DNA of 35,023 bases from a virus: the IMG/VR virus record IMGVR_UViG_3300042691_017573, positions 1 to 35,023 of that record, one strand, 5' to 3'. Both the position numbers and the translations under genes were made by a program. Shown piece after piece: positions 661 through 18,305 of this stretch (positions are counted from its first letter, which is position 1; every line of letters begins with the position of its first letter). The notes under the pieces were generated by a model. It had not been told where the DNA came from. It was given only the letters and a program-made list of their open reading frames with translations, and did no database searches.

Positions 661-1922
661 TATGATAGATAAATTCTTTCGTATTGTGATGAAGAAGCAC
701 CTCCTCCTGGGTCTATACGATACCCTGCAAAGAAATTGCCTAATATATTTGCCACACATTGCATTGAACGATACGAACCAGTTGTGTATTGAAGTGTACC
801 TGATGAGTTAAACTTTCTAATAAAACTGTCTGATGTGCTAAATCCATACACATTGTTACTTGAATCTACTGCGAATGCTCTAACAGAATCGGCTGTTGAG
901 CCACAAACAATGTCTGAAACATAAGTTAATGTTGTCCCAGAGATAGTATATCTTGATACCCTATAATCATTTGCTGAGTTACCACCTTTGTAGTTAAAGA
1001 AGAAGTCTGTACCATTTGATGTCATTCTAACATCATTACCGCCAGTAGTAGCAAAAGCTTGACCTGATATAGTCATAAGTGTGCCACCACTTGCTAAATC
1101 TGTAACACTATACCGATAAAGTCTGTAATTATTTGAACTATCTCTAATAAATACATAGATATATGAGCCAAGTACAACGGCAGAGTTTACGGCATTAGAC
1201 GAAGCCCAGTCTGATGTAGTATCTCTCCTTTGCATGTATGAAGTAGTATATTCAAACTTAAATTCTGTACTTGAGTTTGAATAAATTGAATATACATCTG
1301 AATAAAATCCACCTGTTGTCTGGAAGTAGTTGTGATGAGTTGTTGAAATGTAAAAAGGTACGGATTGTGATGGACTTGCAAAAGATAAATTACCAGAACC
1401 GTCAGTTTGAAGTACCTGTCCTGATGTTCCATCTGCATTAGGTAGTTTTATATTTGCTGTACCGAATTTTACATTACCAGTACCTTTTCCTTTTAGAGAT
1501 AAATCAATATTAGTATCATCTCCTTGCACATCAATGGTAGGTGAATTACCTGTTGAAGCATTTGCTACTCGTATTTCATTGACTGCATTTGCCGTTGTTG
1601 AAAATTCTATTTGTTCATTCCCATTTTCATCTGCTATAAACCCTCCTGTTGCTATTTTTGGAGCTGTCAATGTTTTGTTTGTAAGTGTTTGCGTGGCACT
1701 TTTACCAACAGCTTTATCAGTAGATGTTATTTCACTGAGTTTATAGTCATGTGATGTGGTAACTGCTGAACCATTAGCACCAACTTTATCCTTTAGAGCT
1801 TTAATACTTTCATTTTGGAATGTTTCAAGACCTGCATGGTCAAATGTCGCCACCTCTGTATTAGCAGTAGGAGATGACGGGTTCTGTATTGATGTTGGAA
1901 AGTCGTTTGATGTATATGTCAT
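660..1922 (-). CDS. Tail fibre / receptor-binding protein (420 aa)
   Basis: Residues 1-190 carry features common in phage fibres: a short helical N-terminal segment, a TQTLTNKTLTAPKI linker seen in many tail fibres, then repetitive beta blades (LSLKGKGTGNVKFG, GQVLQTDGSGNLSF). Residues 190-420 are a run of short aromatic and serine/threonine-rich strands with repeating hydrophobic-turn patterns, resembling a beta-propeller or beta-sandwich tip that could bind the host surface. No peptidase S74 chaperone or hydrolase motif is seen. It follows the 55-aa gene by one base and overlaps the 88-aa gene by one base. Receptor binding is inferred from architecture and place. Confidence 0.8.
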   Translation of the reverse strand: MTYTSNDFPTSIQNPSSPTANTEVATFDHAGLETFQNESIKALKDKVGANGSAVTTSHDYKLSEITSTDKAVGKSATQTLTNKTLTAPKIATGGFIADENGNEQIEFSTTANAVNEIRVANASTGNSPTIDVQGDDTNIDLSLKGKGTGNVKFGTANIKLPNADGTSGQVLQTDGSGNLSFASPSQSVPFYISTTHHNYFQTTGGFYSDVYSIYSNSSTEFKFEYTTSYMQRRDTTSDWASSNAVNSAVVLGSYIYVFIRDSSNNYRLYRYSVTDLASGGTLMTISGQAFATTGGNDVRMTSNGTDFFFNYKGGNSANDYRVSRYTISGTTLTYVSDIVCGSTADSVRAFAVDSSNNVYGFSTSDSFIRKFNSSGTLQYTTGSYRSMQCVANILGNFFAGYRIDPGGGASSSQYERIYLS

Positions 1923-5516: not shown

Positions 5517-7298
5517 CTATGGTGTAGCTGGAGTTGTTTGTGGAGTTGGTGTCATAGATTGTTCTACTTGTGATAGTTCTAGTGGTGACATAGCACCTGC
5601 TGTTTCTAATACCTTTGAGAATATAGTCTTAAATGTAGGATTTTGTAGTATCTGAGGATTTGTAGCGATAGTCTGGAGTATAGTTGTAAGTGAATCAAGC
5701 ATAGCTTGTTTGTCTGAACTTTCTCCTGATACTTCAACTTCTACTTCCCATTCAAATCCTTTAAATATATCTTTCCAAGTTGTATCATCTAATTCTGACG
5801 GCTTTATAAATCTTGTGTTTCCGAGTGCAGATAGTTGCGATTGTAGCTTTGCCGTTTCTTCTGCTACCATTTCAGACTGTTGTTCTGGTGTCACTACTGC
5901 TCCGTTCAATACTTCATCAACAACTCTTTTGTTTACAATTTTTGTTACTTCTGAAGAAAGATACCATGTGTCTAGTTGTTTTATTCCATTTGCATCAAGT
6001 ACCGCGACTATTTCGTCTGTCGTGTTTAGTTTGGTTTTAATAAAAGGAATAATGTATTCTCGCATCATATCCTCAATAGCAAGTCCTTTATTTTCTATCA
6101 TTAACTGGAAAAGTGAATTTGCTTCTTGATTAAGAATAGCTACTTGTCTATACGCTGTACCTGACGGCATTGTGTTGCCTGATATTGCATCTGGTGTTGA
6201 TGTAATTTCTTTAGCTAATCCTCTCCATTCATTTGCAAAGTTTTGTACAGATACAAGGTTATTTGATGCATTATTAACCTGAGTTAGAGGTTGGTTTACT
6301 GCATGAGTTAATATATCACCTGTTTCAAGGTCTGTAAGAACATTTCTACCTACAAAATTAGCATCTGCTGTTTGATAGATAGTCTTTGATATGAGTTCTA
6401 GCTGGTCTTTAATTAGCTTTGCTGAATGATTTACCATCCACTGTGCTTGGAATAGATGCTCTACTGCACCAATACCCATAGCTCTTGTTGGCTCTTTTAT
6501 TAAGTCTGCTTTATGATGCTGTAATTTTTTAAGTTTACCTCTGTATAAATAAAAATCTTTTTTATTAGATGAATTATAAGAAAATACGTGAATTTGATTT
6601 ACAAAAGTAAGCTGGTCTTTTTCTTTCTCTGTAATCATTGATAGAGGTAAATTTCCTTGTACTTCGTATATCTCAATATAGTCTGCAAGAGTATCTATCT
6701 GCGTACCATTTTGTAATTCTCTAGTTTGTTTTGTAGATTCTATCAGTTCCTCTACTACGTCTTGGTTATATACAGGATTAAGTCTTAACTGTGATGGAGT
6801 TAAAAACTTCTTTTCTATTCGTACATTATTCTCAAAGTCTATATCATCTGTGATAAGAGTACTCCACGGAACTACTGATACGTTTAGTTCGCCCTCTGAT
6901 TCTATAAATTTAGACACAGCAGAACCATATGTAGCAAGTGTTAGCCCCCAGTCGTTTAAGAAAACACCAAATCTAGCTTTGTTCATCCATTCTTGCAATA
7001 TGATGTTACCTAGAAATGCTGGAATAATGTCAGTAACCTTTGTAGCCTTTAGCTTAATATTTTTTCTATCTATGTCAGTTGCTCTATACCAAATATTACG
7101 AGCTGATGTGACTATGTTAAAAAAAGGTTTTTCTCTACCTAGTGCATCTTCTGAACCTGAGATATGTTTTGAATATACGTATGCTTCAATAGTGTTTATA
7201 GTTTCATATTGAGAATATGATACATACTTTGAGATGTTGGTATTACCTGATTGATACGATGTTTCTCTTTGAGTTACAATTTCTGTTATTTTTTGCAT
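5517..7298 (-). CDS. Portal protein (593 aa)
   Basis: The ATG at 7298 (MQKITEIVTQ) is preferred to a TTG seven codons upstream, because GGGGAG lies about 10 bases before it and the promoter at 7334-7362 fits. It directly follows the terminases. It has the usual portal layout: an N-terminal alpha/beta clip/wing region (PFFNIVTSARNIWYRATDID), a long central helical stem segment (EHLFQAQWMVNHSAKLIKDQ), and a C-terminal helical and Pro/Thr-rich tail ending PQTTPATP. About 590 residues is normal for the dodecameric portal of short-tailed and some siphovirus-like phages. It forms the DNA gate at one capsid vertex. Confidence 0.8.
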   Translation of the reverse strand: MQKITEIVTQRETSYQSGNTNISKYVSYSQYETINTIEAYVYSKHISGSEDALGREKPFFNIVTSARNIWYRATDIDRKNIKLKATKVTDIIPAFLGNIILQEWMNKARFGVFLNDWGLTLATYGSAVSKFIESEGELNVSVVPWSTLITDDIDFENNVRIEKKFLTPSQLRLNPVYNQDVVEELIESTKQTRELQNGTQIDTLADYIEIYEVQGNLPLSMITEKEKDQLTFVNQIHVFSYNSSNKKDFYLYRGKLKKLQHHKADLIKEPTRAMGIGAVEHLFQAQWMVNHSAKLIKDQLELISKTIYQTADANFVGRNVLTDLETGDILTHAVNQPLTQVNNASNNLVSVQNFANEWRGLAKEITSTPDAISGNTMPSGTAYRQVAILNQEANSLFQLMIENKGLAIEDMMREYIIPFIKTKLNTTDEIVAVLDANGIKQLDTWYLSSEVTKIVNKRVVDEVLNGAVVTPEQQSEMVAEETAKLQSQLSALGNTRFIKPSELDDTTWKDIFKGFEWEVEVEVSGESSDKQAMLDSLTTILQTIATNPQILQNPTFKTIFSKVLETAGAMSPLELSQVEQSMTPTPQTTPATP

Positions 7299-16221: not shown

Positions 16222-17358
16222 TTAGTATATTTCTACTTGTCGCCCAACTGATAATGCTTCCTCCATTGTGATAGCTTCTCTACCATTCGCAATAAACCAT
16301 TTATTAAGGTATTCAAGTGCTACCTCGTTAGCTTTTTCCTGTTCATCTGGTGTTAATAGACTCCAACCTGATGAAAATTGACTTGGTATGCCCTTTGCAT
16401 AACAAACAGAAGCCTGACCTAACCACGCAATTCTATTCATAGCTCTGTTAGTTAGATAATGTTCGCATGAATGCTTCCATTCTGTAATTACTTTTTGCAA
16501 AGTTTCTGCAAATAAATCTGTGTCTTTTAGAAATTCTGCGAATACTCTTTGGCATTGTTCTGATGTCATACCGTCTTTAGTACTTGCATAAAATCCAGCT
16601 TTTGCACATTCCCACTTGTCGTATGTATGGAATATTCTACCCTCGTCTGATGTGTTTACTGTTCGCCCATAATCCTCGTTGTCTTCAAACTCATCTGTTA
16701 AAGGTTCAAATCCATGAATACTATCTCCAGCTTCCCATGCTTTGTTAAAGTCATTATCAGAGAACAAATCAGTAAGTCCTGATATTTGGCACAATCGCAA
16801 AATCTCATCTTCATCCATTCCCAACTCTTTAGCAATTCTTTTATTAGTCCAATTTCTGTTTTTAAGTTCTAGTACAATCTCTGACATAGCGTCTACTTGG
16901 TGCTTCCCTCTTGCTCTGTTGTGTCGAATTGTAGAAGCAATACGATTGTTTTTATCTGTCTGTTCGTCTCGAATAACTACAACAGGCAAATAGTTGTGAA
17001 CTCGTTTATTGATTATCGGCGATTCTTTACCTACTCTACTTCTATGAAATCCGTCAATTACTTCATTTTTACCGTCTACGTTGTATGTTACGATAGGTTG
17101 CGTATATCCGTCACTATCAATACTCACTTCAAGTAGTTGCATCTCTGGTGGTGCTACTTTGTTAGGGTTGTAATCGTTTGCGACTACTGTATCTGATTTT
17201 ACCCATAAAACACAATCAACAGGTTCGTTAGCAAATGGCGATTTTTTATGAAGCATTTGTTTAACTGCATTTATAAAATTTACTTTTTCGTCTAGTTCAT
17301 AAGAATCTAGTTTTTGTATAATTTCTTTAATTTTCAAAATGTCGTTTTTTTCTTCCAT
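16222..17358 (-). CDS. ibrB: IbrB-like ParB-domain protein (378 aa)
   Basis: Residues 45-150 form a ParB/sulfiredoxin-type nuclease domain: the ND-YNPNKVAPPEM box near 61-73, GYTQPIV at 84-90, and the diagnostic DGFHRSR at 102-108, then NRIASTIRHNRARGKHQ. An HTH-like region follows (WTNKRIAKELGMDEDEILRL). The C-terminal 200 residues are unrecognised and make it longer than usual IbrB proteins. It is directly upstream of the IbrA-like gene. It is the first coding gene after the 640-nt structured leader and a palindrome 26 bases before its ATG. ParB domains of this kind can hydrolyse nucleotides or act as ATPase switches; which applies here is not shown. Confidence 0.8.
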   Translation of the reverse strand: MEEKNDILKIKEIIQKLDSYELDEKVNFINAVKQMLHKKSPFANEPVDCVLWVKSDTVVANDYNPNKVAPPEMQLLEVSIDSDGYTQPIVTYNVDGKNEVIDGFHRSRVGKESPIINKRVHNYLPVVVIRDEQTDKNNRIASTIRHNRARGKHQVDAMSEIVLELKNRNWTNKRIAKELGMDEDEILRLCQISGLTDLFSDNDFNKAWEAGDSIHGFEPLTDEFEDNEDYGRTVNTSDEGRIFHTYDKWECAKAGFYASTKDGMTSEQCQRVFAEFLKDTDLFAETLQKVITEWKHSCEHYLTNRAMNRIAWLGQASVCYAKGIPSQFSSGWSLLTPDEQEKANEVALEYLNKWFIANGREAITMEEALSVGRQVEIY

Positions 17359-17383
17359 TTATTTGTTATTTATTTAGTAATCC

Positions 17384-17399
17384 TATGGTATATACCATA
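17384..17399. promoter_or_regulatory. 16-bp perfect palindrome upstream of ibrB (operator candidate)
   Basis: TATGGTATATACCATA, centred 33 bases upstream of the ibrB ATG. Its left arm extends to CCTATGGTAT (17382-17391), which recurs exactly at 17846-17855 in the same leader region. A perfect palindrome with a repeated half-site fits a dimeric regulator binding site. Confidence 0.6.
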
Positions 17400-17529
17400 A
17401 CCAAACCCACACAAGCCGTTTTCCGTCCAAAGGTAAAGTTATATTCTCAGTTAATTCCTCGATACTTTCCCTGTCTTGTTCCCCTTAATAGTCTTAATGT
17501 ATTAGTTGAAACTAGCTTATATTGATTTT

Positions 17530-17551
17530 AAAAAGAGCGAATTTGCTTTTT
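17530..17551 (-). terminator. Intrinsic terminator after the T-arm RNA element
   Basis: Minus strand: AAAAAGC, loop AAATTC, GCTCTTTTT. The stem is mostly A-U with one bulged base and ends in a run of U, directly following the closing stem of the 17553-17768 element. Weak to moderate; it would also read as a hairpin on the plus strand. Confidence 0.45.
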
Positions 17552-17552
17552 A

Positions 17553-17768
17553 TAAACTAAATACTGTGTGCAAGAGTCGAACTTGCTGGGTGTCTTCAAA
17601 CTCTCCTTTATACGTATTTCAGAGATGTCCTACTTGCCCTATTAAGGGTAATCTAGATAAAACTTTGAATATTTGACACATGCCCGTACGAACATAGTTT
17701 TCGTTTGTTCTAGGCAACGCTTTACCGAGTATTTCTACTACTCATTCACTAACACAGTATTCAGTTTA
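17553..17768 (-). ncRNA. Structured RNA with tRNA-like T-arm and 17-bp closing stem
   Basis: Minus strand. The ends pair over 17 consecutive positions (17752-17768 with 17553-17569); the one non-Watson-Crick position is G-U on the minus RNA but A-C on plus. Immediately inside the 3' strand is a perfect T-arm: stem GCAAG/CTTGC (17570-17586) with loop TTCGACT, the tRNA T-loop consensus. Next to it GACAC (17590-17594) pairs with GTGTC (17675-17679). Hairpins GAGTA/TACTC and GAACA/TGTTC fall in the 5' half. It is too long for a tRNA, no D-arm or anticodon stem fits, and no tmRNA tag frame is found. No known RNA family assigned. Confidence 0.55.
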
Positions 17769-17802
17769 CAAAGAGCAAACCCTTTTAACTTTACCTCCGT
17801 TA

Positions 17803-17823: not shown

Positions 17824-17892
17824 ATGCCCCATAACATTTTTAGTCCCTATGGTATCTTGTATCAGATTTTGGCGACTTTGTGAAAAGATTTT

Positions 17893-17992
17893 AAAAATAA
17901 AAACCCTTTCACGACACGCCCAGACTTTCGCCTGAGAGCATCCTGAAAAGGTTCTTAGATGCTTTTCGAGTCGTGGTTAGTATTTCACTAAC
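17893..17992 (-). ncRNA. Switch-like structured RNA: 5' hairpin, three-way junction, competing terminator
   Basis: Minus strand, beginning at the predicted start of the 17999-18026 promoter. Hairpin GTTAGT/ACTAAC (17976-17992) is followed without gap by a three-way junction: P1 CACGAC/GTCGTG (17970-17975 with 17910-17915), P2 AGCATC/GATGCT (17958-17963 with 17937-17942) and P3 CAGGC-GAAA-GTCTG (17921-17934, GNRA tetraloop, one G-U pair). An alternative 9-bp stem, ACCTTTTCA in the P2 loop (17944-17952) with TGAAAGGGT (17903-17911), shares bases with P1 and is followed by TTTTATTTTT, a good terminator. This is riboswitch or attenuator architecture; the ligand, if any, is unknown. Confidence 0.6.
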
Positions 17993-17998
17993 ATAAAT

Positions 17999-18026
17999 AT
18001 TATACACCCCTCTTTTTAAAAGTCAA
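17999..18026 (-). promoter_or_regulatory. Strong sigma70-type promoter for the structured leader and ibrBA operon
   Basis: Minus strand: -35 TTGACT (18026-18021), 16-base spacer, -10 TATAAT (18004-17999). The predicted start, 17992, is the first base of the 5' hairpin of the switch-like RNA. It overlaps the 3' end of the 101-aa gene. Confidence 0.75.
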
Positions 18027-18305
18027 ATATTTCTTTTCCACAGTCTTTCTATCAGTCTTTAAAGCCCCCCACCATACCTTTGAAAAACTATCTCCTTTCT
18101 CACAAGTTTTCAAGAAAAAATATAAATCAGATATATTCAAATGTGACATTTTAAAAGCTACAAAACTAGGTTTTAAAGGTTTTAGATTTCCTCTCTCTTT
18201 ATTAAGTCTATCTACAAATAGTGATATAACGTAAGCTCTTTCTGACTTTATCTTCGGTCTAACGTCTGCTACCGATATATCTTTTAAGAGTAATGCTATT
18301 TCCAT
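18000..18305 (-). CDS. Conserved-looking hypothetical protein next to the origin candidate (101 aa)
   Basis: A soluble basic protein. The block FVAFKMSHLNISDLYFFLKT and the following FSKVWWGALK have the look of a short conserved module (hydrophobic helix, Ser-His-Leu turn, aromatic C-terminal helix), but I cannot name the family. It is divergently oriented to the plus-strand early operon, with DnaA boxes in the 181-base gap between them. It could be an early regulator or replication accessory; no motif proves it. Confidence 0.65.
   Translation of the reverse strand: MEIALLLKDISVADVRPKIKSERAYVISLFVDRLNKERGNLKPLKPSFVAFKMSHLNISDLYFFLKTCEKGDSFSKVWWGALKTDRKTVEKKYLTFKKRGV

Follow-up and report, generated by a model that had tools for sequence, protein, structure and literature searches.

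A candidate two-state terminator at the 5' end of a large noncoding RNA in phages and integrative elements, probably of Patescibacteria

The locus and its predicted transcript start

The window analyzed here is a 35,023-nt stretch of the virus record IMGVR_UViG_3300042691_017573, and the element of interest is read on its minus strand, from a predicted start at 17992 to a U-tract ending at 17893 (Table 1). These positions, marked out by an earlier note made from the sequence alone, cover only the first 100 nt of a conserved noncoding region that extends well past 17893 and continues to the start of ibrB, 634 nt from +1. The IbrB-like protein (16222-17358, minus strand) had no Pfam match, and its hundreds of phage relatives are annotated as ParB/sulfiredoxin. 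On the upstream side, the end of a gene for a 101-aa small protein without Pfam match (18000-18305, minus strand) meets the RNA promoter; this protein has a 41% identical relative with the same end position in locus L086 (3312-3587) and is present in locus L002 too; it is a conserved upstream neighbor of the RNA, perhaps a partner.

The strong promoter claimed in the earlier note, with its start at the first base of a 6-bp hairpin, held up as a prediction: TTGACT-16-TATAAT has 11 of 12 matches and was the top-scoring promoter in the region, and the hairpin (P0) begins exactly 7 nt past the -10 box. The arrangement recurs at all 16 loci described below, where P0 lies 6 or 7 nt (6 nt in 14 loci) from the end of a -10-like box; these boxes scored at least 5.5 of 6.5 in 15 of the 16 loci, vs. 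7.5% of random positions. A hairpin at the P0 position was likewise found in 16 of 16 loci, with varying stem sequence.

Table 1. Features of the element and of the noncoding region that follows it, in window coordinates
Feature	Position	Strand	Sequence or remarks
Promoter	17999..18026	-	-35 TTGACT 18026-18021, 16-nt spacer, -10 TATAAT 18004-17999, predicted +1 at 17992
P0 hairpin, transcript 5' end	17976..17992	-	GTTAGT-GAAAT-ACTAAC
P1, 5' strand	17970..17975	-	CACGAC
P1, 3' strand	17910..17915	-	GTCGTG; final two bases common to P1 and B
P2 stem-loop	17938..17962	-	GCATC 17962-17958 / GATGC 17942-17938; element A in loop
P3 stem-loop	17919..17936	-	17936-17930 with 17925-17919; GAAA loop 17929-17926
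Element A, 5' arm of terminator hairpin	17944..17953	-	AACCTTTTCA, exposed in P2 loop
Element B, 3' arm of terminator hairpin	17902..17911	-	TGAAAGGGTT, just after P1
U-tract, predicted termination site	17893..17903	-	TTTTTATTTTT
Hairpin in downstream RNA	17854..17867	-	ATCT-GATACA-AGAT; ATCC-GATACA-GGAT in L002
H4 hairpin	17829..17852	-	GGACTAAAAA-type loop; similar in L002, L137, L140 and L099
Long-range helix, 5' strand	17786..17796	-	AGGTAAAGTTA
Inserted domain, 233 nt	17553..17785	-	closed by 28-nt inverted repeat; absent in L002
Long-range helix, 3' strand	17431..17441	-	TAACTTTACCT
3' part of conserved noncoding region, up to ibrB start	17361..17552	-	70% identical to L002; GGAAAACGGCTTG segment also in L137

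Two folds in the window

The three-way junction of P1, P2 and P3 with its GAAA tetraloop is present just as the earlier note had drawn it. Element A, in the P2 loop, can instead pair with element B; this alternative stem, which the note had built from the P2 loop and bases overlapping P1, also stands, at 10 bp rather than the 9 bp given there. It is extended inward by a P2':P1' pairing (GAUGC/GUGUC) and by P3, and runs into the U-tract. P3 is present in both folds at the phage-type loci. The junction and terminator folds are mutually exclusive, because the terminator hairpin is lengthened by pairing between the 3' strands of P2 and P1. The minimum free energy for 17870-17992 was -46.3 kcal/mol, vs. 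-24.0 +/- 3.1 in shuffles (z -7.1), and the unconstrained minimum-energy fold was the alternative, A:B one. That the minus-strand RNA is the functional one, as previously proposed, is supported concordantly by U-G pairs in P3, by the promoter, by the U-tract and by a U-G pair at A:B position 5 in 12 of the 16 loci, which would read as an A-C mismatch on the opposite strand.

Homologous loci

We found 15 homologous loci sharing this plan, nine of them viral and six in Patescibacteria chromosomes, making 16 with the window. L002 was found through its ibrB neighbor. Patterns for A and B yielded eight further copies on viral contigs (L085, L084, L086, L095, L099, L133, L137 and L140) and two on Patescibacteria chromosomes (L108, Candidatus Nomurabacteria, and L112). 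A DNA search with the L108 RNA across 147 genomes of that family added L124, L126, L127 and L128, in all of which A and B fall outside the query pattern; L126 and L128 were found by homology of the downstream RNA. One of the viral copies, L085 (2203-2298, minus strand), is a second switch on the contig of L002, lying away from ibrB and facing a peptidoglycan-binding-domain gene; this one phage accordingly has two switches, with a different RNA after each.

Most matches to the relaxed pattern were coding or simple hairpins, and these were rejected because they lacked P0/P1; matches in Fructilactobacillus, Paenibacillus, Enterococcus, Pedobacter and Paludibacter look like plain terminators. A search with CAATACGGAATACNNAACGG gave one extra match, inside a capsid-region gene, which we attribute to chance. 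A covariance model (R1) found no matches in 380 Patescibacteria genomes, with strict filters that also missed a known positive; its seeds were hand-trimmed to equal length for use as a search tool only, and all conservation tests below were run on untrimmed sequences. A DNA similarity search of named phages gave no match.

The earlier note could match the RNA to no known family, and the Rfam search that it proposed agreed: these elements had no match in Rfam 15 at the curated gathering threshold, and relaxed thresholds gave only weak, chance-level matches for the window region and the L108 RNA. We found no described match for the element in the literature either. The switch recurs at the start of long noncoding stretches in phages and bacterial mobile DNA, at 15 or more places besides the window, and so has the look of an RNA family not previously described.

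Covariation supports both folds

L002 retains the loops of the window element while P1, P2 and P3 are changed on both sides, and compensatory changes of this kind, on which the earlier note had staked its junction, are found across the homologues. For the test of P1 we fixed the register from P0 and B alone: all 64 of 64 cells at its four variable positions were Watson-Crick over the 16 loci, whereas permuting the 3' strands among loci gave 35.5 on average and never more than 53 in 20000 trials. Restricted to the 11 distinct P1 sequences, 44 of 44 were paired, vs. a permutation maximum of 39. The P2 score of 248 (permuted mean 151.5, sd 13.6) was reached in 0 of 20000 permutations. The A:B stem covaries as well, at position 3 (C-G/U-A/U-G), position 5 (U-G/U-A/C-G) and position 7 (U-A/C-G), with compensatory states such as AATCTTTTCA/TGAAAAGATT in L126, AATCTTCTCA/TGAGAGGATT in L128 and AATCTTTTCA/TGAAAGGATT in L140; this covariation thus extends to L126 and L128, which were found independently of the A/B pattern. 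L127 and L124 have one A:B mismatch apiece. These data from homologues are much stronger evidence than the fold z-score for the reality of both folds, and the earlier claim of two exclusive folds, one with terminator anatomy, gains from both being kept, through compensatory change, in the 15 homologous loci.

Constrained folding gave -22 to -35 kcal/mol for the junction and -27 to -40 kcal/mol for the terminator over all loci. As the transcript was lengthened in this calculation, the junction was favored in nearly all loci until about 4-6 nt of B had emerged, and the terminator in 16 of 16 once B and two U had emerged (only just in L140 and L127); the calculation is one without pseudoknots or kinetics, in which A:B stability rises trivially as B grows. 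B is followed by a U-tract that has 8-9 T in its first 10 nt in 15 of the 16 loci and is weak only in L095. The element thus has the anatomy of a transcription attenuator, with two exclusive conserved folds, one of them a hairpin followed by a U-tract.

We weighed whether P1 and A:B might instead coexist as a coaxial pseudoknot, the element being a structural domain of the large RNA that does not terminate transcription. The order of the two helices would permit an H-type pseudoknot, with just 2 nt shared between B and the 3' strand of P1. Full A:B pairing, however, requires P2 to open, the P2':P1' pairing extends the terminator, and the U-tract is kept directly after B in every locus, as a terminator would have it; we regard the pseudoknot as very improbable.

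Relation to ibrBA and to riboswitches

The junction strands, J1/2 included, vary freely in length and sequence across the 16 loci, and Patescibacteria loci have an apparent extra helix, seen in folds, between J1/2 and the P3 region. Fixed letters are limited to CA..UG at the base of P1 plus A and B, whose fixation is partly ascertained because A and B served as search patterns. This lack of conservation in the junction strands argues against a metabolite aptamer.

The description of the RNA as the head of the ibrBA operon is locally apt in the window and fails as a general rule: among 79 other viral ibrB loci, about five of which had too little upstream sequence to judge, L002 was the sole carrier of the element. 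Elsewhere the element has other neighbors or opposite-strand genes, with no constant downstream gene. In the window and L002, ibrBA may be co-transcribed with the RNA. The earlier note had proposed a metabolite riboswitch, in which the junction would be an aptamer whose ligand prevents termination of ibrBA, and an aptamer-like junction with a mutually exclusive terminator is indeed what one sees. Yet the two marks of such a riboswitch, conserved ligand-binding nucleotides and a consistent type of downstream gene, were both lacking: no junction or loop nucleotides are conserved outside A/B and the P1 base, 78 of the 79 other ibrB loci have no element, and what the element heads is a noncoding RNA. 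We therefore set the proposal aside as highly unlikely.

The downstream noncoding RNA

At phage-type loci the RNA that begins with the element is apparently structured, measures 418-634 nt and contains a covarying long-range helix. L002 and the window share blocks of 74% and 70% identity, flanking the 233-nt domain that L002 lacks. Covarying hairpins and the 11-bp helix (17796-17786 with 17441-17431) hold the region together; the helix reads GGTAAAGTTA/TAACTTTACC in the window, GATAAAGTTAT/ATAACTTTATC in L002 and AGTTAAAGTT/AACTTTAACT in L137, the last keeping it with other bases, a different insert and a different gene downstream. GGACTT-containing hairpins resembling H4 were recognized by eye in L002, L137, L140 and L099, on different stems.

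The inserted domain of the window carries a T-arm-like hairpin, GCAAG-TTCGACT-CTTGC (17586-17570), followed by an acceptor-like strand, and the insert at the same place in L137 carries CTAAG-TGTAAAC-CTTAG. Both domains are possibly tRNA-like; ARAGORN called no tRNA in them, and the T-arm-like string GCAAGTTCGACTCTTGCACACAGTA was not found in viral contigs.

In the Patescibacteria type, the element heads a noncoding RNA of ~740 nt, conserved over L108, L112, L124 and L126, in which a long-range helix (CGGAUAAGC/GCUUAUCCG type) covaries and a strong terminator is predicted at the end. Past this terminator lies a further conserved segment (TTACGCTATCACTCATTACTATGAGCGTGGGCGTGACTAT-like; L108 ~6690-6800, L112 ~1120-1245, also L124 and L126), possibly a second element. 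L108 also has an Rfam LOOT RNA (79.6 bits; 1683-1804, plus strand), which lies ~4 kb upstream of the large RNA and may belong to the same mobile element. Phage and Patescibacteria types have different downstream RNAs: motifs common to both were recognized by eye alone, and viral contigs gave no match to the Patescibacteria RNA core. Because 6-8-mers shared downstream of B were no more frequent than in shuffles, we make no claim of homology in this part over the full set of loci.

A long noncoding stretch follows the element in all loci examined, and in L085, L095, L112 and L124 the genes that come next are on the opposite strand, so the output is best seen as noncoding RNA. What lies downstream thus seems to be more than a leader, namely a large structured noncoding RNA. 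These long stretches also count against taking the element for an independent sRNA of ~100 nt with an ordinary terminator, the junction being simply one of its folds and the downstream RNA either read-through or transcribed separately. A stable sRNA would indeed be expected from a transcript that has P0 at +1 and closes with a terminator, but the junction that competes with the terminator is itself under selection, and we think the sRNA unlikely.

Hosts and carriers

All six genome loci, two from the pattern scan and four from the DNA search, fall within one Patescibacteria family sample. Two loci lie ~10 kb or less from a large serine recombinase gene (Pfam match for L141, sequence similarity only for L143), suggesting an integrative element, and a Patescibacteria genome encodes a partial relative of the window's terminase at 59% identity. 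The hosts are therefore likely, though not proven, to be Patescibacteria, a group of ultrasmall bacteria.

Proposed mechanism

We consider it probable that a large structured noncoding RNA, carried by phages and integrative elements (probably those of Patescibacteria), has as its first 100 nt a two-state transcription attenuator acting in cis (a regulated intrinsic terminator). P0 would form at the 5' end as RNA polymerase leaves the promoter, followed by P2, P3 and lastly P1, giving a junction that holds A in the P2 loop. On emerging, B would pair with A, breaking P1 and P2 to make a long hairpin directly before the U-tract, and the transcript would end near 17893 as an RNA of ~100 nt. Were the junction held instead, by a protein, by polymerase itself, or through speed or pausing, transcription would run on into the large RNA, in the window phage perhaps as far as ibrBA. 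That termination and read-through both occur and are regulated we infer; no conserved sensor site was identified in the element, so regulation, as opposed to a fixed partial terminator, is likewise a matter of inference. A protein, polymerase or transcription speed is a more plausible trigger than a metabolite.

The same 5' structures could act otherwise. HK022 put is an antitermination RNA, a folded RNA at the very start of phage transcripts and repeated in one genome, and by analogy nascent P0 and junction might bind RNA polymerase and confer resistance to termination, so that the long RNA is completed. Different transcripts, two of them in one phage, do have the element right at their +1, with two structured domains from the first nucleotide and no conserved ligand pocket. 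Against this, it conserves a terminator that destroys the junction, while put RNAs have, to our knowledge, no overlapping terminator of their own; we judge antitermination of this kind improbable.

More broadly, we lean towards an undescribed family of large structured RNAs carried by phages and by serine-recombinase elements of Patescibacteria. In this family a conserved two-state terminator at the RNA's own 5' end, sometimes present twice in one phage, would gate synthesis. If true, this would place a family outside Rfam in phages that probably infect a huge and hardly studied group. Few bacterial RNAs are as poorly understood as the large ornate RNAs of phages, and the evidence here suggests an on-off control over the very synthesis of such an RNA. 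Being short and self-contained, the two-state element would offer a direct way into the questions of when these RNAs are made, and why.

Comparison with known systems

Like HK022 put, the element stands at the transcript start and has two copies in one phage; unlike put, its fold competes with its own terminator. Plasmids pT181 and pIP501 have antisense-controlled attenuator leaders, which are likewise carried by mobile elements and form either a terminator or, exclusive of it, an antiterminator. Here, by contrast, we found neither a promoter-like site on the plus strand facing the element nor, within the window, a second good complement of A, and these searches gave no support for antisense control. 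Attenuators and transcriptional riboswitches in general also place two mutually exclusive folds, one being a hairpin plus U-tract, between promoter and output, but the output of the element is apparently a large noncoding RNA rather than a fixed gene, and it has no conserved ligand pocket.

The window region is likely a large folded phage RNA. Going by description, it may be likened to the abundant orf-less transcript of ~800 nt in phage ICP1 (PMC7567579), and closest in kind are GOLLD and ROOL, which are also elaborately folded noncoding RNAs of several hundred nt in phages and prophages. GOLLD combines a conserved part with a variable one, and tRNAs can be present in a linker (PMC12286853); the window RNA is similarly interrupted by a variable inserted domain with a T-arm-like hairpin. 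The window and homologue RNAs match neither Rfam model, however, and the window RNA is not beside a tRNA island, the only tRNA of the window lying ~6 kb away. The host group is apparently Patescibacteria, and the part that the RNAs share is the 5' end, with its two-state terminator.
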